A DNA stretch of 41,394 bases. Source: Anaerolineales bacterium. Its GTDB lineage: Bacteria; Chloroflexota; Anaerolineae; Anaerolineales; Villigracilaceae. The notes beneath the pieces are model-generated. The model did not search any database, was not told the DNA's origin, and saw only the letters and a program-made list of their open reading frames with translations. The first letter of the stretch is position 1, and each line of letters opens with the position of its first letter. This document shows, piece after piece, positions 13,516-35,160 of the stretch. The translations under genes were made by a program, and so were the position numbers. The stretch is taken from positions 1 to 41,394 of the forward strand of contig JACZJB010000228.1 of assembly GCA_014860805.1 (NCBI GenBank). Direction: 5' to 3'.

Positions 13516-14832
13516 TTAGATTACAGCGTCGATCATCAACGCGAGAAAGATGAACATCAGATACATGCTAGACCAGCGATACATTGTCCACGCGACTTTG
13601 TTGCCGCCAACCTTCCAAACACGGAAAGCCGCATAAAGCAACAAACCGCCCAGCACCACCGCAGAGACAAGGTACACCATCCCCGCCAGATTGAAAATGG
13701 GGAGCAATAATGTGACAGCAATCAACTCGATAGTGTAGATAAGAATATGCCTGCGGGTCTTTTCCTCCCCATGAACTACGGGCATCATGGGCACGCCTGC
13801 CTTTTCATAATCCTTCATGCGGACAATAGCCAGCGCCCAAAAATGTGGAGGAGTCCACATGAAAACGATGGCAAACAGAATCCATGCTGCAAGGCCGAGG
13901 TGACCTGTCGCCGCCGCCCAGCCCACCATCGGAGGGATGGCGCCTGCCCCGCCGCCAATGACAATATTCTGTACGGTCGCCTTTTTAAGCCAGACACTAT
14001 AGAACAGAACATAATAAAAAATACCGACCAATGAAAGCAAAGCCGCCAGCAGGTTGACAAAGCCCGCCATCACATAATAACTCAGCAAGCTCAGAGCCAG
14101 CCCGTAAGACAATCCCTCTGCCGGTGTCAGGCGTCCTTCAGCAAGCGGGCGCTTGGATGTACGCTGCATTTTCTTGTCCAGTTCGCGGTCAATATATTGA
14201 TTCAACGCGCTTGAGCCAGCCGCAGCCATAGTGCCGCCCAGCAAGGTCCAAAAAGTCAACGAAGCGGAAGGCCAGGCTTTCGCGCCTGCAACCAATCCGC
14301 TGTACGTTGTGACCAAAAGCAGCGCCACGATCAACGGTTTTGAGAGGATAAAAAAATCCTTCACGCGCTGACGAAAAGAAAATCTTTCGACCACAGCTTT
14401 ATCTTCTGCCAACACGCCAGACGCAAACACGAGCGAAGCGAGCGAAATCCATAATGCGATTGCGGTCATTTGATGCAGTACAAGCAAGTGCAAAGGATAG
14501 GAACGGGTTACTTCAATGGCACCGACAAAAGCCTGACCAAGAAACAACACGCCGGTTACAGTAGTCAGCGGCAAAAGCAGATTCTGATCCCGTTGTTCAC
14601 GCCATGCTTTTCGCCACACCAGCGCCATAAACACTGAAGCCACACCCACCAAAGTAATGTGCAAAAGTTTCAAATACCCCAATGGATTTGTCGGCACACA
14701 CACAGGCCACCCTGCGCAATACGCCCACGCGCCAGTCAATGCAACGATCCGCCCGACAACAGTCAACAAAAAGACCATCACAAACAACCCCAGCACCAAG
14801 CGGGAGAAGGACGATTTCAACGAATATTTCAT
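13516..14832 (-). CDS. ctaB: Fused half-CtaA/Cox15 and CtaB (heme o synthase)
   Basis: A 438-residue membrane protein with two parts. Residues 1-145 form four helices with CtaA/Cox15 features: a cysteine pair in YCAGWPVC (C39, C45) and histidines H58 and H120 suited to heme binding. This is only half the usual eight-helix CtaA. Residues 155-438 are a UbiA-type prenyltransferase with NQYIDRELDKKMQRTSKRPL (N211, D215, D219) and MWTPPHFWALAI, the CtaB hallmarks. CtaB adds a farnesyl group to heme b to give heme o; CtaA oxidises heme o to heme a. ATG 14832 fits AGGA upstream and sits 5 bases after the SURF1 stop. It is the last gene of the oxidase assembly operon. Such fusions exist in some lineages; whether the half-domain is catalytic is unknown. 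Confidence 0.9.
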   Translation of the reverse strand: MKYSLKSSFSRLVLGLFVMVFLLTVVGRIVALTGAWAYCAGWPVCVPTNPLGYLKLLHITLVGVASVFMALVWRKAWREQRDQNLLLPLTTVTGVLFLGQAFVGAIEVTRSYPLHLLVLHQMTAIALWISLASLVFASGVLAEDKAVVERFSFRQRVKDFFILSKPLIVALLLVTTYSGLVAGAKAWPSASLTFWTLLGGTMAAAGSSALNQYIDRELDKKMQRTSKRPLAEGRLTPAEGLSYGLALSLLSYYVMAGFVNLLAALLSLVGIFYYVLFYSVWLKKATVQNIVIGGGAGAIPPMVGWAAATGHLGLAAWILFAIVFMWTPPHFWALAIVRMKDYEKAGVPMMPVVHGEEKTRRHILIYTIELIAVTLLLPIFNLAGMVYLVSAVVLGGLLLYAAFRVWKVGGNKVAWTMYRWSSMYLMFIFLALMIDAVI

Positions 14833-14837
14833 ATCTA

Positions 14838-15569
14838 CTAATCCTGCTTTCTCAAGTAAAACGGATACCCAACGAACAAAATCGTCGCAAAGGTAAACCA
14901 CTGCAAGGCATATCCAAAATGCGAACCCTCACTGATCTCCACAACCGGCTGAAAAGGAAACGGCGGTATCGTGTCACCAGCTTCCACATTCGGCTGAATA
15001 TAAACATCCAAAATAGGGAATTCCAACTGCGCGGCGATCTGCTCCAAATTTAGATTATTCCACACGAAAAGCATTTCCCCGTTATCAGGCAGCGCATCTT
15101 CCACTCCGCCGAAAGCTGGCTTTACCTGCCCAAGCCGAATCTGTCCCGTGACAGTGACCTCCCCTTCATCGTCATACGCTCGCCAATCGGCGGGAGAAGA
15201 ATTGCCTTCAGCGGGAATCCAGCCGCGGTCCACCAGAACAGCTGTCCCGTTGAAATGAAGCGGAGTCACAAGATGGTATCCGTATTGGTCGCCGTTGTAT
15301 TGATTCCGCAAAGCGATCTGATTCTCAAAATCATATTTGCCAATTACAGTGACAGCCCGCCATTCCATTGCGGAGATATCTTCAGGTAATTCAATATTTA
15401 AATCCAAAGGTTCTGCGGCGCGCATGGATTCGACCTGTGTATTGAAAGCACGGCGCTGCTCAAGCCTGTCCAGCTGCCAAATCCCCAGGCGAACGCAGAC
15501 AGCGGCACCTAAAAATGCAAGCAAAGTGGTGAGCAGCCATTTACGGCTGAACATTTTTTTGAGGATCAT
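14838..15569 (-). CDS. SURF1/Shy1 family cytochrome oxidase assembly protein
   Basis: A 243-residue protein with a membrane helix at each end (about 10-30 and 220-238) flanking an extracytoplasmic domain, the SURF1 layout. Family motifs seen are RLGIWQLDRLEQRR after helix 1, MEWRAVTVIGKYD, VLVDRGWIP, and SHFGYALQWFTFATILFVGYPFY at the C-terminus. SURF1 proteins help insert or hold heme a during assembly of subunit I. ATG 15569 overlaps the upstream cupredoxin-like gene by 29 bases; the alternative ATG 15554 has no better ribosome site. The gene lies between the cupredoxin-like protein and CtaAB, matching its role. Confidence 0.92.
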   Translation of the reverse strand: MILKKMFSRKWLLTTLLAFLGAAVCVRLGIWQLDRLEQRRAFNTQVESMRAAEPLDLNIELPEDISAMEWRAVTVIGKYDFENQIALRNQYNGDQYGYHLVTPLHFNGTAVLVDRGWIPAEGNSSPADWRAYDDEGEVTVTGQIRLGQVKPAFGGVEDALPDNGEMLFVWNNLNLEQIAAQLEFPILDVYIQPNVEAGDTIPPFPFQPVVEISEGSHFGYALQWFTFATILFVGYPFYLRKQD

Positions 15570-16053
15570 TTTTCTTTTTCGAAGGCATGATTACAGCATA
15601 AAGAGCGATCAACATTCCGAGGGGCAAACCTGAAAATAAGATTCCATAAAGACGGGTGCTAGTGGTAAGGGGCTCGTGCACGTCGAGACCGAAATAATTC
15701 CCTTCCTGGAACGAACATTCATAAGCGTAGGATTGTGCCGCGTCCAACGGCAGGCTTGCAGAGGTGCCGGCGGGAATCCACAACGGGCCAAGCTGGTGAT
15801 CTGTTACGTCATTGTTACGGACCAGCAGGGTATCGCCTACGACAAAAGTCATTGCATCGGGGAGAGACGGAGGCGTTTCACCATTAGCAATGCTTTCTGC
15901 TGTGCCTTCAGGAATGACGAGCTCTATCACTTTTGGCGCACGGGCGGTTTCCCGCAGAAACAGAAAAGTCACTTCGTTGATCAAAACGCCCACAGCAAGA
16001 CCGATCAACAAAGAGACAAGAATTCGTTTTAATACAATTTGAATGGAGGGCAT
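15541..16053 (-). CDS. Membrane-anchored cupredoxin-like protein of unknown function
   Basis: A 170-residue protein with a membrane helix at 9-31, a beta-rich extracytoplasmic domain at about 45-132 and a second helix at 136-155 with a basic tail. The domain reads like a cupredoxin: TFVVGDTLLVRNNDVTDHQLG (H86), then YECSF (C113), then DVHEP (H126). These could be His/Cys/His copper ligands, but there is no axial methionine. I do not recognise a named family. It lies between SCO (17 bases upstream) and SURF1 (29-base overlap), so a role in copper handling or assembly of the CuA/CuB centres is a reasonable inference. A purely structural role without copper cannot be excluded. Confidence 0.75.
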   Translation of the reverse strand: MPSIQIVLKRILVSLLIGLAVGVLINEVTFLFLRETARAPKVIELVIPEGTAESIANGETPPSLPDAMTFVVGDTLLVRNNDVTDHQLGPLWIPAGTSASLPLDAAQSYAYECSFQEGNYFGLDVHEPLTTSTRLYGILFSGLPLGMLIALYAVIMPSKKKNDPQKNVQP

Positions 16054-16070: not shown

Positions 16071-16673
16071 TTACTTTAACAGCAGTTTAATGTCGTGAGC
16101 TATATCTTCGGGCGGAGTTTGAAACCCATAAGATAAACGCATATTCCCGGCTTTATCGATCAGGATAACCCGGGCCGTATGGTTGATGATGTAATTTGTT
16201 TCAGACGTTCCTTCCACTACTTCTCGAAATACACCGTAGGAGTTCCAGATCGGGGCGAGTTCCTCTTCTGTGCCGCTCAAGCCGATAAAGGTCGGATTAA
16301 ATCGTTCCACATACTTTTGCACTTTTTCAGAAGTATCGCGTCCCGGGTCAACGGAAATAAACACAACTTGAACCTCGTCAGCATCTGACTTCAACAATTC
16401 CATTACCAATTTCAGTTCGGCCAGAGTTGTCGGGCAAATATCAGGACAGTACGTGTACCCGAAGAAAAGAAGCGTGATCTTCCCTCGATTGTCACTTAAT
16501 TGAAAAGGGGAACCTTCGGAGGATGTTAAAGTAAATTCAAATGCTGAGGGCACGGGGTCGGCATATGCTGTGCCGCGAAAACTGGCAGGTTTGACGAACA
16601 GGATATTTAATGCAATTGCCGCAACGATCACAAGTAGAGAAGCAACTCCAACCCGGGTAATTTTTCGATCCAT
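16071..16673 (-). CDS. SCO1/SenC copper-insertion protein
   Basis: A 200-residue protein with an N-terminal membrane anchor (about 9-27) and a thioredoxin-fold domain outside the membrane. The copper-binding motif CPDIC (C76, C80) and the distal histidine in NHTARV (H165) are all present. LLFFGYTYCPDICPTTLAEL and FISVDPGRDTSEKV are classic SCO segments. Known SCO proteins deliver copper or reduce the CuA thiols of subunit II, here CtaC. GGAG lies 11 bases before ATG 16673. A GC-rich hairpin at 16714-16743 separates it from the structural oxidase genes, so expression may differ from theirs. Confidence 0.93.
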   Translation of the reverse strand: MDRKITRVGVASLLVIVAAIALNILFVKPASFRGTAYADPVPSAFEFTLTSSEGSPFQLSDNRGKITLLFFGYTYCPDICPTTLAELKLVMELLKSDADEVQVVFISVDPGRDTSEKVQKYVERFNPTFIGLSGTEEELAPIWNSYGVFREVVEGTSETNYIINHTARVILIDKAGNMRLSYGFQTPPEDIAHDIKLLLK

Positions 16674-16805: not shown

Positions 16806-17573
16806 CTACAAAGCCTTTCCAATCAAATACAAGGCGGGGTAGAAGAAGATCCAGACGAGGTCTACGAAGTGCCAGTAAACGGCGGCGGCTTCCACACCCC
16901 AGTGCTGCTCTGCGGAATAAATGTCCTTACGGGCGTTGTTCAACACGACTACGAGGAAAAGCAGCCCCGTAAAGACATGGAAAGCATGCATGCCAGTCAT
17001 CATGTAGAAGACGGCTCCCGCTGCGCCGCTGCCGGCTGTCAGCCCTTCTTCGGCCGCCAGAGGCCATTCCACAGCCACCACGCCCAGCAAGAAGCCGAGA
17101 CCAAGCACAAAGGTGATGATGGTATTGGTTATAAAGCCCTTCTTGTCCCCATGCGCCATGGCGGTCTCACCACGGTTCATGAAAAATGAAGAAACCAAAA
17201 GGACAGCGGTCACGGCCAAACCAAGAGTTTGATTCAAATGCGGACGAGTAAGCCCAAGCAGATTGATGCGGACAGTGAGCAAACCAGCAAAGACAAAGGC
17301 GTCAGACAGCAGGAAGAGCCACAAGCCAAGCCGGTTCGTGCCGGTTTTGTATGAATACGAGTGTATATCAGCGTCACTCTCTTCATTCAATTTGTAAACA
17401 TGCATGTAATAGTACATGACCAGGCCAACCTTGATAACTGCGACCACAACAAGGATGGAAACGGCATTGAACGTAACCGCGACAAAATACTCCAGCACGG
17501 TTAATACAGCGAGGTAGACAAAAATCACCACGCCCTGGCGAAAAGCAGAAAGTTTATCTAATGTGTGTGACAT
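16806..17573 (-). CDS. ctaE: Fused cytochrome c oxidase subunit IV-subunit III
   Basis: A 255-residue membrane protein made of two oxidase subunits. Residues 1-75 have helices at about 13-33 and 37-58 and the motif IKVGLVMYYYMHVYKL, typical of the small prokaryotic subunit IV. Residues 78-255 are a five-helix subunit III with LWLFLLSDAFVFAGLL, TGMHAFHVFTGLLFL, and HWGVEAAAVYWHFVDLVWIFFYPALYLIG. The usually conserved glutamate of the first subunit III motif (SE) is an aspartate here (SD). Subunit III supports subunit I and proton uptake. It starts 14 bases after the CtaD stop. Confidence 0.9.
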   Translation of the reverse strand: MSHTLDKLSAFRQGVVIFVYLAVLTVLEYFVAVTFNAVSILVVVAVIKVGLVMYYYMHVYKLNEESDADIHSYSYKTGTNRLGLWLFLLSDAFVFAGLLTVRINLLGLTRPHLNQTLGLAVTAVLLVSSFFMNRGETAMAHGDKKGFITNTIITFVLGLGFLLGVVAVEWPLAAEEGLTAGSGAAGAVFYMMTGMHAFHVFTGLLFLVVVLNNARKDIYSAEQHWGVEAAAVYWHFVDLVWIFFYPALYLIGKAL

Positions 17574-17587
17574 TTGAGTCCTACCCC

Positions 17588-19480
17588 TTATTTATGCGCG
17601 CTTTTGGCGGGCGCAGAAAATTCAACATACTTCGAGTCGGCCAAGCCGTAATCGTATGGTTCGCCCACAACTTCAAAGGGCTGGTCGTAATTGTGCATGG
17701 GCATTGGAGAAGGAACCTGCCACTCAGGTGAGCGGGAATTCCAAACATTGCCTTCCGCCTTTTCGCCATTTTTGATGCTGTTAAAGAAGTTGTAAATGAA
17801 GATCATAACGGAGAGACCGATCAAATAGCCGGCGATGGTGAGCACCAGATGTGTGGTATCAAAACCAAGCGCAGGGTCATAGTCCGCAATACGACGGCGC
17901 ATGCCAAGCAAACCAATACGCATCATGCCGAGGGTCAAAACAAAGAACGAGGGAGTCATCATCCAGAAATGGATTTTTCCGAGGGTCTCATTCATACGGC
18001 GGCCAGTTGCCTTGGGAAACCAGTAGTACAGGGCGGCAAAGAATGGGAAAACAAAGCCGCCAAAGATCGTGTCGTGGAAGTGTCCCACAATGAAATAGGT
18101 ATCGTGGAGATGAAGGTCGGTCGAAACCGTAGCATTTGGAGGTCCAGAAAGACCGCCCATCAGGAAGACTACGATACCGCCCAGCACGAAGAGCATGGGA
18201 GTAGGCGTCTCGATCTTACCCTTCCACAGGGTCGCAACCCATGAGAAGAACTTCACGCCTGTAGGAATGGCAACCAACAAGGTGCTGTACATGAACGGCA
18301 CGCGTAAATATTCATTCATGCCTGAAGTGAACATGTGATGCGCCCAAACGACAAAGCCCACCAGAGCAATACCGAGGGAGGACATGGCGATCCAGCGATA
18401 ACCAAACAATGGCTTGCGCGCAAAAACAGGCAGCAGTTCGGAAATCACACCGAGACCGGGCAGAACGAACACGTACACCGCAGGATGTGAGTAGAACCAG
18501 AACAAATGCTGGAAGAGAACCGGGTTACCGCCCTTGGCTGAGTCAAAGAAGCCCATACCAAAAAGACGCTGGAACATCACCAACTGGAAGGAAAGACCAA
18601 TCAACTGGGTTGCGGTGAGAGCTATGAGAGAGGTGGCAACAGCGGCCCACACAAAAATAGGCATGCGCATGGCAGTCATGCCTTTGGCACGCATACGAAG
18701 AACCGTGGCAATCACATTCAATGCGCCTAAAATGGAAGACCAACCTGCCGTAAACACACCAAGGAAGAACATCTGCATGCCAACCGGAGCGCGCGCCGAA
18801 AGCGGCGGGTAGCCTGTCCAGCCTGTGTCAAAGCCGCCAAGGACAAGGCTCATCAGCAAAAGTACAGCCGCAGGGACGGCAATCCAGAACGAAAAGGCGT
18901 TCATACGCGGGAAGGCCATATCCTGCGCACCAAGCAGCAAAGGCACAACATAGTTGATGATGCCCGAAACGCCCAAAAGAATGGACACGATCATGATCAT
19001 GCCGTGCAGGGACATCAAGGTGTTATAAAGCTGCGGTCCATTTTGACCGAATAACTGCACATCTTCGGTGAGGAATTGTAATTGGGAGGCTGCAAGTTCC
19101 GTACGGAAGATCAAAGCAAACAAACCGCCTATGCTGATCAATGCCAGCGCGACCACTGTGTATTGAATGCCGATCACTTTATGATCGAGAGAGACACTGA
19201 AGTATTTCTCCCAGCCAGAATATTTCTCTTCATGAACTTCAGGGGTATTGATCCCGCGCGCCCACTTGAACCAATCCGTTACCGCCCCGTTGCCGCCCAG
19301 GAAGAAAAGCACGCCAATAAAGCCGCCCAACACCCAGGCTGGCTCCGTAAAGAAAAATTTATCAGTAACACTCAACCCCATTGCGGCGCGAATGCCGGTA
19401 ATCAAACCGGCGCCCAACAAAGTGCCGATAAATTGCCAGAATAATCCTCGCGCGAAGGCAGTTGCAAAAAACTTCTTCAT
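17588..19480 (-). CDS. ctaD: Cytochrome c oxidase subunit I (A2-type heme-copper oxidase)
   Basis: A 630-residue subunit I that reduces O2 to water and pumps protons. Low-spin heme ligands are H159 (SLHGMIMI) and H469; the high-spin heme ligand is H467 (VGHFH). CuB ligands are H332, H381 and H382, with Y336 as the cross-linked tyrosine. The helix VI motif is YSHPAVY, not HPEVY, placing it in the A2 group that uses Tyr-Ser in place of the D-channel glutamate. K410 in PTGVKFFSW is the K-channel lysine. About 90 extra N-terminal residues contain two hydrophobic segments before the core begins at YFSVSLDHKVIG. GGAGG precedes the start by 9 bases. The gene lies 20 bases after CtaC. Confidence 0.96.
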   Translation of the reverse strand: MKKFFATAFARGLFWQFIGTLLGAGLITGIRAAMGLSVTDKFFFTEPAWVLGGFIGVLFFLGGNGAVTDWFKWARGINTPEVHEEKYSGWEKYFSVSLDHKVIGIQYTVVALALISIGGLFALIFRTELAASQLQFLTEDVQLFGQNGPQLYNTLMSLHGMIMIVSILLGVSGIINYVVPLLLGAQDMAFPRMNAFSFWIAVPAAVLLLMSLVLGGFDTGWTGYPPLSARAPVGMQMFFLGVFTAGWSSILGALNVIATVLRMRAKGMTAMRMPIFVWAAVATSLIALTATQLIGLSFQLVMFQRLFGMGFFDSAKGGNPVLFQHLFWFYSHPAVYVFVLPGLGVISELLPVFARKPLFGYRWIAMSSLGIALVGFVVWAHHMFTSGMNEYLRVPFMYSTLLVAIPTGVKFFSWVATLWKGKIETPTPMLFVLGGIVVFLMGGLSGPPNATVSTDLHLHDTYFIVGHFHDTIFGGFVFPFFAALYYWFPKATGRRMNETLGKIHFWMMTPSFFVLTLGMMRIGLLGMRRRIADYDPALGFDTTHLVLTIAGYLIGLSVMIFIYNFFNSIKNGEKAEGNVWNSRSPEWQVPSPMPMHNYDQPFEVVGEPYDYGLADSKYVEFSAPAKSAHK

Positions 19481-19500: not shown

Positions 19501-20505
19501 TTATTTCAACGTCTTGAGATACGCAATAATGTTCGCGATCTCTTCATCGGTCAATGCTGTGTAAGGCGGCATGCTCGAAGGTGAGAAACCAGCCACCTCA
19601 TGCGCCAACGGCTCGCGAATGGACTGGGTAATGTAAGCATCGTCCGCCACAGCAGATGTACCATCTGCAAATTCACGCACAGAACCGTAGGTACCCAACC
19701 ACGAAGGTCCCACCAATTTCGAACCATCTATGGAGTGACAGCCGATACAACCGTTCTTCACCGTCAGCAATTGACCGATCGCCTCGGGAGTCTGAGCTGC
19801 CGCTGCAATGGCTGTCTGTTCTGCGATCCAGGCATCATAATCGACCTGCGCATCCACGATCACAGGATTTTCCATTTTGTAATGGGACATGCCGCAAAGT
19901 TCCGCGCAGCGGACTTTGTAATCACCGATCAGCGTCGGGGTGATTCTGTATCTCGTCACGCGCCCAGGCACAACGTCCTGCTTGACGCGGAATTCAGGCA
20001 CCCAGAACGAGTGAATCACATCCGATGATTCCATCAAGAGCACAACCTGTTGATCCACAGGCAAATGCAATTCAGTCGAGACGATCCCATATTCGGGGTA
20101 TTCAAAAGTCCAGGAAAATTGCTGACCCCTCACCTTGATCTCAATTGCATCCGGGTCCACACGGTTTATTTCACCGAGCGAATAAGCGCCCATATAAGCA
20201 AAAGCCAACACCAGAAACAAGGGAAGCACAGTCCATGTGATCTCCAGATTGGTGTTGCCTTCGATATGTTCGCCATCGCCGGTCTCGCCCTTCCTGCGCC
20301 GAAAAACAACAAGGCTGTAAACCAGCGGCACAAAAATGAGCGCGAACAGGAATGACATCGCGACGACCTGCCAGTTCCATAACCAGTCAATCGAAACCGC
20401 CTGCGCGCTGGCTTGAACAGGCATCAGCCCAGCAGAGTCAAGACCGACGTAAGTGAGAACGGCCATGACGATGACCAGAATTCCCACGATTACAAAGTGT
20501 TGCAT
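19501..20505 (-). CDS. ctaC: Cytochrome c oxidase subunit II with fused cytochrome c (caa3 type)
   Basis: A 334-residue protein. An N-terminal hydrophobic segment (signal/anchor), then two subunit II membrane helices (about 46-68 and 90-110), are followed by the CuA cupredoxin domain with all ligands: H165, C200, E202, C204, H208 and M211. QQFSWTFEYPE is the aromatic electron-entry region. A class I cytochrome c domain is fused at the C-terminus: CIGCH (C253, C256, H257) and distal M312 in SSMPPY. This makes it a caa3 oxidase that carries its own electron donor. First gene of the oxidase cluster; AGGAGAGAG gives a strong ribosome site. Confidence 0.96.
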   Translation of the reverse strand: MQHFVIVGILVIVMAVLTYVGLDSAGLMPVQASAQAVSIDWLWNWQVVAMSFLFALIFVPLVYSLVVFRRRKGETGDGEHIEGNTNLEITWTVLPLFLVLAFAYMGAYSLGEINRVDPDAIEIKVRGQQFSWTFEYPEYGIVSTELHLPVDQQVVLLMESSDVIHSFWVPEFRVKQDVVPGRVTRYRITPTLIGDYKVRCAELCGMSHYKMENPVIVDAQVDYDAWIAEQTAIAAAAQTPEAIGQLLTVKNGCIGCHSIDGSKLVGPSWLGTYGSVREFADGTSAVADDAYITQSIREPLAHEVAGFSPSSMPPYTALTDEEIANIIAYLKTLK

Positions 20506-34502: not shown

Positions 34503-35000
34503 CTATGGGGTTGTTTGTTGACCAGCACCCCAACCGCCCATCATCCCGCCGCGGCCATAGCCATTGCCCATCATACCATTGCCATAATTGCCTTGCGGAC
34601 CGACTCCTGTGCAATTGCTATTTCTCATGGTACCGCGGGAGGTCATCCAATCCGCCTGCTCCTGAGTAATGACGTTGGCTTTCACGGCTTCTGCCAGAGC
34701 AGCCGCGCGGACTTCGGTCATGATGGCGGGGAATTCGTCAGCGGTGACGCCTGCCGAAAGGGCAATGTCATACATGGTCTCGCCAGCCGCGAGGCGGGTG
34801 TTAATGTCGTTCACATTCAGGTCAAGCGCCTTCGCAAATTCAACGGTCATAAAAGTGTGGACGGGGCCTGAACCGTTGTTCATCATTTGTCCATGCCCAA
34901 AGGGAACAGGGGGAGTGTTATCTTGGGCAAACACAGCGCCCACGCCCAACACGCCCAAAGCCAGCACTGCCAAACCTACGATCAAAATTGTCTTTTTCAT
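34503..35000 (-). CDS. Secreted protein with Met/Gly/Asn-rich tail
   Basis: A 165-residue protein with a clear signal peptide (MKKTILIVGLAVLALGVLGVGAVFAQ, cleavage probably after VFA). A small helical domain follows (VEFAKALDLNVNDINTRLAAGETMYDIALSAGVTADEF), with similarity in style to LysM-like or DUF2680-like repeats. The last 40 residues are rich in Gly, Met and Asn (GNGMMGNGYGRGGMMGGWG), low in complexity, and might bind metal. ATG 35000 is chosen over 35006 because AGGAG is then 7 bases away. I cannot name a family with confidence. It is a single-gene unit ending at a bidirectional terminator. Confidence 0.75.
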   Translation of the reverse strand: MKKTILIVGLAVLALGVLGVGAVFAQDNTPPVPFGHGQMMNNGSGPVHTFMTVEFAKALDLNVNDINTRLAAGETMYDIALSAGVTADEFPAIMTEVRAAALAEAVKANVITQEQADWMTSRGTMRNSNCTGVGPQGNYGNGMMGNGYGRGGMMGGWGAGQQTTP

Positions 35001-35160
35001 TTTCATACTCCTTTTGAGTAAATATTCAGATCTATCCTGATTACTCCCAAAGGATACATCTGCAATGTAAAGGTTCCATAAAGAAAAGGAAAAGAGTGGA
35101 ACAAGATGATTCGACGGAAAATGACACGGAAACCGCAAGGTTTTTTGAACTGAAAATCAA

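Follow-up and report, generated by a model that had tools for sequence, protein, structure and literature searches.

The window considered here, a 41,394-nucleotide stretch of DNA from an Anaerolineales bacterium (assembly GCA_014860805.1, contig JACZJB010000228.1), carries on its minus strand an operon for a caa3-type oxidase with the gene order COX2, COX1, COX3, SCO, CUP, SURF1 and a CtaA-like/CtaB fusion (Table 1). CUP is the name used below for the product of an open reading frame (ORF) that an initial annotation of the window had described as a cupredoxin-like membrane protein, leaving the strand unstated. The ORF is real: it runs from 16053 to 15541 on the minus strand and encodes 170 amino acids, and stops interrupt the plus-strand reading of the same interval. 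Its placement between SCO and SURF1 was likewise borne out, with Pfam matches for both neighbors, a gap of 17 nt between the SCO stop (16071) and the CUP start, and an overlap of 29 nt with SURF1, which starts at 15569.

CUP has no Pfam or NCBIfam match at E up to 1. Four of its divergent relatives were compared with Pfam at E values as high as 10; one had a chance-level match (E 0.065) and the other three had none. A search of PHROGs with CUP returned nothing (E 0.63). CUP represents a protein family without a name, the fold of which is known; its job, too, is most likely of a known kind.

Table 1. Features of the oxidase operon and of the CUP protein (positions are those of the window)
Feature	Position	Strand	Basis
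CUP, 170-aa cupredoxin-fold membrane protein	15541..16053	-	ORF reading, structure model, orthologs
CUP N-terminal membrane helix, residues 4-32	15958..16044	-	model, hydropathy
CUP cupredoxin beta domain, residues 42-126	15676..15930	-	model, structure searches
CUP H86, invariant, first-His ligand position of cupredoxins	15796..15798	-	homolog alignment
CUP C113, invariant, Cys ligand position	15715..15717	-	homolog alignment
CUP Q116, at the second canonical His position (C-x2-H)	15706..15708	-	homolog alignment
CUP H126, variable, no family-wide ligand	15676..15678	-	homolog alignment
CUP C-terminal membrane helix, residues 131-155	15589..15663	-	model, hydropathy
SCO1/SenC copper chaperone, directly upstream of CUP	16071..16673	-	PF02630, E 2.9e-42
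SURF1, overlaps the CUP 3' end	14838..15569	-	PF02104, E 1.6e-41
CtaB heme O synthase with N-terminal CtaA-like part	13516..14901	-	profile search
COX3 with COX4_pro-like N-terminus	16806..17573	-	profile search
COX1, A2-type motif YSHPAVY	17588..19480	-	sequence, profile search
COX2 with CuA motif CAELCGMSHYKM and c-type heme domain (caa3)	19501..20505	-	profile search

Two further genes of the operon have composite features. The N-terminal part of CtaB, approximately 180 amino acids long, matches positions 175-321 of the CtaA/COX15 profile (E 7.6e-4, under the cut-off), that is, its C-terminal half alone, and may be a CtaA of half size joined to CtaB; fusions of CtaA with CtaB have already been published for Chloroflexi, as stated in the available portion of PMC8239418. 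COX3 begins with a COX4_pro-like stretch (PF03626, residues 15-59, E 4.4e-7), and a separate short ORF labeled COX3 stands ahead of COX3 in the loci L050, L052-L058 and L060.

Predicted fold and putative copper site

An AlphaFold model of CUP built on an alignment of 30 sequences (mean pLDDT 82.6, pTM 0.61) reproduces the architecture suggested in the initial annotation, namely a beta domain and two membrane helices, with hydropathy agreeing for the helices. In a Foldseek search of the PDB, the best match of the model was the purple cupredoxin of Nitrosopumilus maritimus (5fc9, E 1.3e-5), followed by Cupredoxin_1 4hcf (E 1.8e-5) and amicyanins (from 7.6e-5), and VIA-align superimposed the model on 5fc9 with Z 8.7 and rmsd 2.7 over 81 residues. 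A second model, for which the same 30 sequences were used with the divergent ortholog in L050 (47% identical) as the query, had a pLDDT of 87.0 and again matched 5fc9 best (Foldseek E 4.5e-6; Z 9.3, rmsd 2.5, 81 residues). The cupredoxin fold was thus found in both predicted models, the comparison with 5fc9 concerning the fold only and not the ligand set. Among the structural matches listed for either model there is no Cox11 entry, which rules out nothing. A profile-based sequence search of the PDB gave nothing convincing (best E 0.016), and the top match in a library of viral structures was a giant-virus blue-copper protein that offered no functional lead. The listed matches also include CupA, a copper chaperone of Streptococcus pneumoniae (4f2e; Z 6.6, rmsd 3.0, 75 residues), with a Z under 8 that may mean only a common arrangement, compared with CUP on the fold and not on ligands. 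CupA has a membrane anchor and, unlike CUP, a copper-export gene context.

Basic residues near the start of the N-terminal helix and the Lys-rich C-terminus suggest that both ends of CUP are cytoplasmic, and the beta domain is probably exposed on the membrane's outer side.

The initial annotation had named H86, C113 and H126 as residues arranged in the manner of copper ligands, without an axial Met. All three residues are present in the CUP of the window, which holds a single Cys, has no CxC motif and carries Phe at C+8, so the absence of the axial Met is correct. H86 and C113 are invariant in 48 distinct homologs; in the close family, represented by 73 distinct rows, His occupies position 86 in 73/73 and Cys occupies position 113 in 72/72 that have a letter there (one gap). 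Conservation in orthologs therefore held for these two residues and failed for H126, which was rejected as the third ligand, being His in 11 of the 48 homologs and 12 of the 73 close-family rows. Because H126 is variable, a three-ligand site is unsupported and the invariant His/Cys pair remains. H86 is aligned with a His of the matching stretch of 5fc9, in a weak alignment (E 1.6).

The ligands of cupredoxins have a canonical C-x2-H spacing, known from plastocyanin. In the close family, the C+3 position is Gln in 57/73 rows and His in none, so the second His of type-1 cupredoxins is missing, and the C+8 position is occupied by F (36 rows), L (19), I (7), M (5), Q (3) or V (1), with a gap in two. 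Residues outside the site are also conserved, including E27 and R38 (73/73) and R134 (70/73). Twenty-three more distant rows were aligned, the Cys being aligned in 19 and the other four being fragments or poorly aligned. According to a tally read by eye off the printed alignment rows, both His are present in four of the 19, the one at position 86 only in six, the one at C+3 only in eight, and neither in one (L110). Since distant rows vary in the His that they keep, the constant part of the site is the Cys and nearly always one of two His, and the eight rows with a C+3 His instead of H86 mean that the ligand set is not fixed. As judged from these residues, CUP is a degenerate Cys/His cupredoxin and not a type-1 electron carrier, because the second His is mostly Gln and the axial Met is lost; H86 and C113 may form a site of Cu(I) transfer. 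The profiles of type-1 cupredoxins PF00127 and PF13473 did not match the CUP of the window and gave weak matches, under the cut-off, in two of eight distant relatives (E 0.0047 to 0.17).

The cupredoxin fold and the oxidase operon together would fit an electron-transfer protein feeding the oxidase, similar to AcoP, the green cupredoxin of Acidithiobacillus, which likewise has one cupredoxin domain and takes part in a respiratory chain, and the closest group of which has a predicted N-terminal membrane helix. However, AcoP keeps four putative type-1 ligands (H85, C159, H166 and M171; these features of AcoP are taken from the available part of PMC4059628), whereas the second His and the Met are gone from CUP, and a c-type heme is already found on subunit II, which makes an electron-carrying CUP very improbable.

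CUP was also compared with the known copper-delivery proteins, the features of which are given as far as the accessible portions of the literature describe them. Cox11 (CtaG_Cox11, PF04442), thought to give CuB, resembles CUP in its membrane anchor, outward beta domain and invariant Cys, but has an immunoglobulin-like fold, a single N-terminal helix and two Cys paired in a CxC motif, in contrast to the cupredoxin fold, one Cys and two helices of CUP. Caa3_CtaG (PF09678), like CUP a tentative CuB factor, precedes SURF1 in the sister operon L132, but the Bacillus subtilis protein has seven predicted helices, as against two in the CUP model. PCuAC (PF04314) is, like CUP, a cupredoxin-like protein, a copper chaperone, and the two genes adjoin in several loci; PCuAC, however, is water-soluble and has the His/Met motif H(M)X10MX21HXM. 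None of the three profiles PF04442, PF09678 and PF04314 matched CUP, which has neither a match to the profile of the CuA domain of COX2 (PF00116) nor its CxExC...HxxM motif. As defined by profiles and motifs, CUP is outside type-1 cupredoxins, Cox11, CtaG and PCuAC.

Occurrence and gene neighborhood

Two draws of genomes were analyzed, one of relatives (61 genomes) and one of the phylum Chloroflexota (400 genomes, the four profile searches being taken as covering the same 400 on the basis of matching identifiers and totals). The loci fetched for analysis of gene order were chosen for their genes, so that counts of operons are not random; only the two genome draws are. In the draw of relatives, CUP was matched in 45/61 genomes, which means that the ORF is more than chance, and in 36/37 of the window's own genus; in the sole genome of the genus where it was missed, G014, the contig ends inside SCO, just before the place of CUP (L135). 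The phylum draw yielded matches in 55/400 genomes, 27 of them in the close family (E under 1e-40) and 28 distant (E 3.5e-19 to 9.3e-4). A short-peptide-pattern scan of genome contigs, the only scan to reach beyond Chloroflexota, produced 31 loci, all titled Chloroflexi/Chloroflexota or Anaerolineae/Anaerolineales/Anaerolineaceae/Anaerolinea.

The gene directly upstream of CUP in these 31 named loci is SCO (28) or PCuAC, itself behind SCO (3), and thus SCO or PCuAC adjoins CUP in 31/31, a linkage expected of an oxidase copper-assembly factor. SURF1 lies directly downstream in 30/31, the remaining contig ending inside CUP, and oxidase genes are found upstream of SCO in 29/31. Among the others, L031 begins at SCO, and L038 (1-8649) has the order SCO-CUP-SURF1-CtaB preceded by 5.3 kb of unrelated sequence without oxidase genes, phosphate-transporter-like by eye; together with the matching genome G020, which has no COX3, L038 can be read either as an incomplete assembly or as a split operon. 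The initial annotation had asked whether orthologs are always accompanied by A2-type caa3 genes. Wherever the COX1 adjacent to CUP could be read, it is A2-type (motif YSHPxVY in 40/40, in loci picked for CUP or for CtaG/COX3), but oxidase genes are missing nearby in L038, in L160 (G216; the fetched 15 kb contain close-family CUP, SURF1 and CtaB), in L151 (G303; a second close-family copy with SCO only) and in many distant relatives.

Among 20 loci of distant relatives, SCO and/or PCuAC adjoin CUP in 12 (L094, L096, L099, L100 and L102-L109), PCuAC being present in L094, L099, L100, L102-L105 and L109. In L111, SCO is found in an overlapping frame; in four loci (L092, L095, L097 and L098), CUP is right behind COX3; and three (L093, L101 and L110) have no labeled partner. 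PCuAC is present in 42/61 genomes of the relatives draw. The initial annotation had seen neither PCuAC nor Cox11 in the window; for the oxidase region this is uncontradicted, but PCuAC is encoded on another contig of the same genome (C119:5074-5388).

This neighborhood bears on two further explanations. CUP could serve the mature oxidase, either as an accessory subunit or by stabilizing it, with the cupredoxin domain as a metal-free structural relic. Small two-helix proteins are common as accessory subunits, two of the four canonical ligands are gone, and the conservation of residues outside the site would fit as well; but CUP is placed among assembly genes, after SCO or PCuAC and before SURF1, and in 12 of the 20 distant loci it still accompanies SCO and/or PCuAC. 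In addition, C113 does not vary, and one or both canonical His are retained in 18 of the 19 distant rows that have the Cys. Together, these points render a relic unlikely. Alternatively, the overlap with SURF1 in the window and the strict co-order of the two genes in the close family could be taken to mean that CUP serves heme A insertion with SURF1 rather than copper, a highly unlikely explanation given that the distant SCO/PCuAC cassettes have no labeled SURF1 and that SURF1 is also found in L132, a CtaG operon that lacks CUP.

In a published gene table of Anaerolinea thermolimosa, the entries for CtaB (GAP05464), SURF1 (GAP05465) and SCO (GAP05467) skip GAP05466 (available part of PMC8756737); GAP05466 is probably CUP. 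Nothing recognized as a description of CUP was found in the literature searched, which consisted of partial texts and mostly excluded subscription papers.

Several copies have an unusual structure. In one metagenome-assembled genome, CUP is split over two frames (L059:5995-6473, plus strand), through a frameshift or an assembly error. In G184, a distant cupredoxin-like part lies within two longer ORFs, L096:322-1542 (minus strand, 406 amino acids), which has a long hydrophobic extension, and L101:7039-8688 (plus strand, 549 amino acids); both are possible fusions with a membrane domain.

Distribution relative to Caa3_CtaG and Cox11

In the phylum draw of 400 genomes, COX3 was matched in 295, Caa3_CtaG in 269 and Cox11 in two, one of which is below the cut-off. 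The genomes with close-family CUP all have COX3 (27/27), and Caa3_CtaG is present in 2/27 of them versus 233/268 of the other COX3 genomes (Fisher p 1e-17, without correction for kinship). One exception is G000, the genome of the window, which has no Cox11 match and a single Caa3_CtaG match, on contig C95, inside a second, A1-type oxidase operon (L122); in the other, G104, CtaG is on C8 and the oxidase on C5. The L122 oxidase has the A1-type motif FGHPEVY; in this operon Caa3_CtaG is flanked by COX3-like genes, and neither SCO nor SURF1 is labeled nearby.

Among the relatives, 43 genomes have both COX3 and CUP, and two of these, G000 and G038, also have CtaG or Cox11, in each case beside a second oxidase operon (L122 and L125). 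COX3 without CUP is seen in seven relatives, not counting G014: three have CtaG (G045, G050 and G058), two have a divergent Cox11-like protein (G046, and G039 under the cut-off) and two have no factor (G040 and G059). The Cox11-like proteins, L130:7216-7701 of G046 and L129:6355-6786 of G039 (both minus strand), have one Cys and no CxC; the former adjoins SCO and PCuAC. Counted by genome, with kinship ignored, the Fisher p is 1.9e-4; counted by genus, with g4 on both sides (G052 with CUP, G039 without), it is 0.035 (1/9 vs 5/7) and becomes 0.126 if the window's genus is scored CtaG-positive because of G000. CUP without COX3 was found in two relatives, both with CUP of the close family, G010 (75% complete, with a contig that starts in SCO) and G020 (89% complete), and eight have neither.

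The 241 COX3 genomes of the phylum draw without a CUP match include 218 with CtaG and 22 with none of CUP, CtaG and Cox11. Nine of these 22 belong to f36, where CUP is found in 12/21 COX3 genomes and CtaG in none, so either the search may overlook divergent copies of CUP or these oxidases may do without a factor. Some second oxidases also have no factor near (L139 and L145), and it follows from such oxidases and genomes that a CuB factor may be dispensable or that others exist. The distant relatives of CUP share a genome with Caa3_CtaG in 15/28 cases and once the same operon (L098, G282); the superfamily as a whole, therefore, does not replace CtaG. G298 has one oxidase operon with CtaG (L142) and another with distant CUP (L097).

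The arrangement in the family f72, where CtaG is beside COX3 in the six genomes with a CUP match while distant CUP is beside SCO in the four loci fetched (L099 and L106-L108), looks like a CuA-side role for distant CUP. More generally, CUP might be a third member of the CuA-loading set that relays copper from PCuAC or SCO to subunit II, or holds SCO, with no part at CuB. Besides f72, the adjoining SCO or PCuAC in every named locus points this way, as do cassettes of SCO, PCuAC and CUP without oxidase genes in the fetched stretch (L094, L099, L100 and L102-L105). Oxidases that have CtaG but lack an adjacent CUP, however, keep their CuA motifs, so CuA does not generally require CUP, and a role restricted to CuA leaves the complementarity of the close family with CtaG unexplained; we regard it as possible but doubtful. 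Two other explanations were rejected. CUP is not a marker of oxidases that lack CuA, as the COX2 rows that failed the first motif are C-x-Q-x-C variants, and oxidase type alone is insufficient to account for the pattern of CtaG, which accompanies A2-type oxidases in five rows (L132, L133, L142, L147 and L157).

The operon L132 of G050, a genome of the same order of bacteria, reads COX2-COX1-COX3-CtaG-SURF1-CtaB-SCO, with CtaG preceding SURF1 in the slot taken elsewhere by CUP. In a tree of COX1 with 57 rows (L059, L134, L158 and L159 were left out, and L135, cut inside SCO, was assigned to the CUP group by hand), the COX1 of L132 is sister to 35 CUP oxidases in a clade of 36 with support of 100/100, and the branch uniting the 35 has 94/98, below the starred level. 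L124 (G038), which has CUP of the distant type, pairs with L133 (G045), which has CtaG, at 100/99, L133 being, like L157, a long branch. The CUP label needs at least four changes on this tree.

Proposed role in copper assembly

Based on the fold, the invariant pair and the linkage, we propose with a probability of about 0.8 that CUP is a copper-assembly factor working with SCO and PCuAC. The Cox11-type role suggested in the initial annotation gains support from the models, the conservation of the operon, the linkage to SCO and PCuAC and the complementarity with CtaG; what fell away is the gap left by PCuAC. Since PCuAC is present elsewhere in the genome of the window, the vacancy is that of a CuB factor and not of CuA factors. 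The chances are about even that CUP acts at CuB in place of CtaG or Cox11, given that SCO, encoded in the operon, and PCuAC are present as helpers for CuA, that CuB factors are mostly missing, and that CtaG oxidases without CUP still hold the CuA motif.

CUP would then be a dedicated assembly factor for the A2-type caa3 oxidase, with two helices anchoring the cupredoxin domain at the outer face of the membrane. After loss of the second His and the axial Met, the H86-C113 pair would hold one Cu(I), in a manner suited to transfer and not to electron carriage. CUP may get copper from SCO and PCuAC, or act beside them, and would hand it to the oxidase, most likely to the CuB site in subunit I, a step that Cox11 or Caa3_CtaG is thought to serve elsewhere. 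The analysis shows the predicted fold, the conserved pair, the operon with its SCO/PCuAC linkage and, for the close family, a distribution complementary to that of Caa3_CtaG; the outward orientation of the domain, Cu(I) binding, the direction of transfer and the choice of CuB over CuA are what we infer here. On slightly less than even odds, CUP is a third, independently evolved CuB factor, a worn-down His-Cys cupredoxin that replaces Caa3_CtaG or Cox11 in A2-type caa3 oxidases of one lineage of Chloroflexota, with switches between CtaG and CUP on the COX1 tree.

The delivery of CuB to heme-copper oxidases is an open question. In the available parts of three publications, the assignment of Caa3_CtaG to CuB is described as not established (a 2026 paper, PMC13344008), SCO is proposed to serve the binuclear center (CuB) in some A2 oxidases (PMC6431628), and the proteins that insert the metal centers of subunit I are described as poorly understood and diverse, with further ones expected (a 2022 review, PMC9145763). 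The CUP operons that have neither of the known factors offer a simple test system. If CUP does act at CuB, an electron-transfer fold would have been turned into a copper donor, and a role would be assigned to a recurring gene of oxidase operons that has no family name in the libraries searched.

Elsewhere in the window, an ORF at 34503-35138 on the minus strand contains a hydrophobic stretch that terminates in VFAQ, as well as a tail rich in Gly and Met, and appears by eye to encode a secreted protein.
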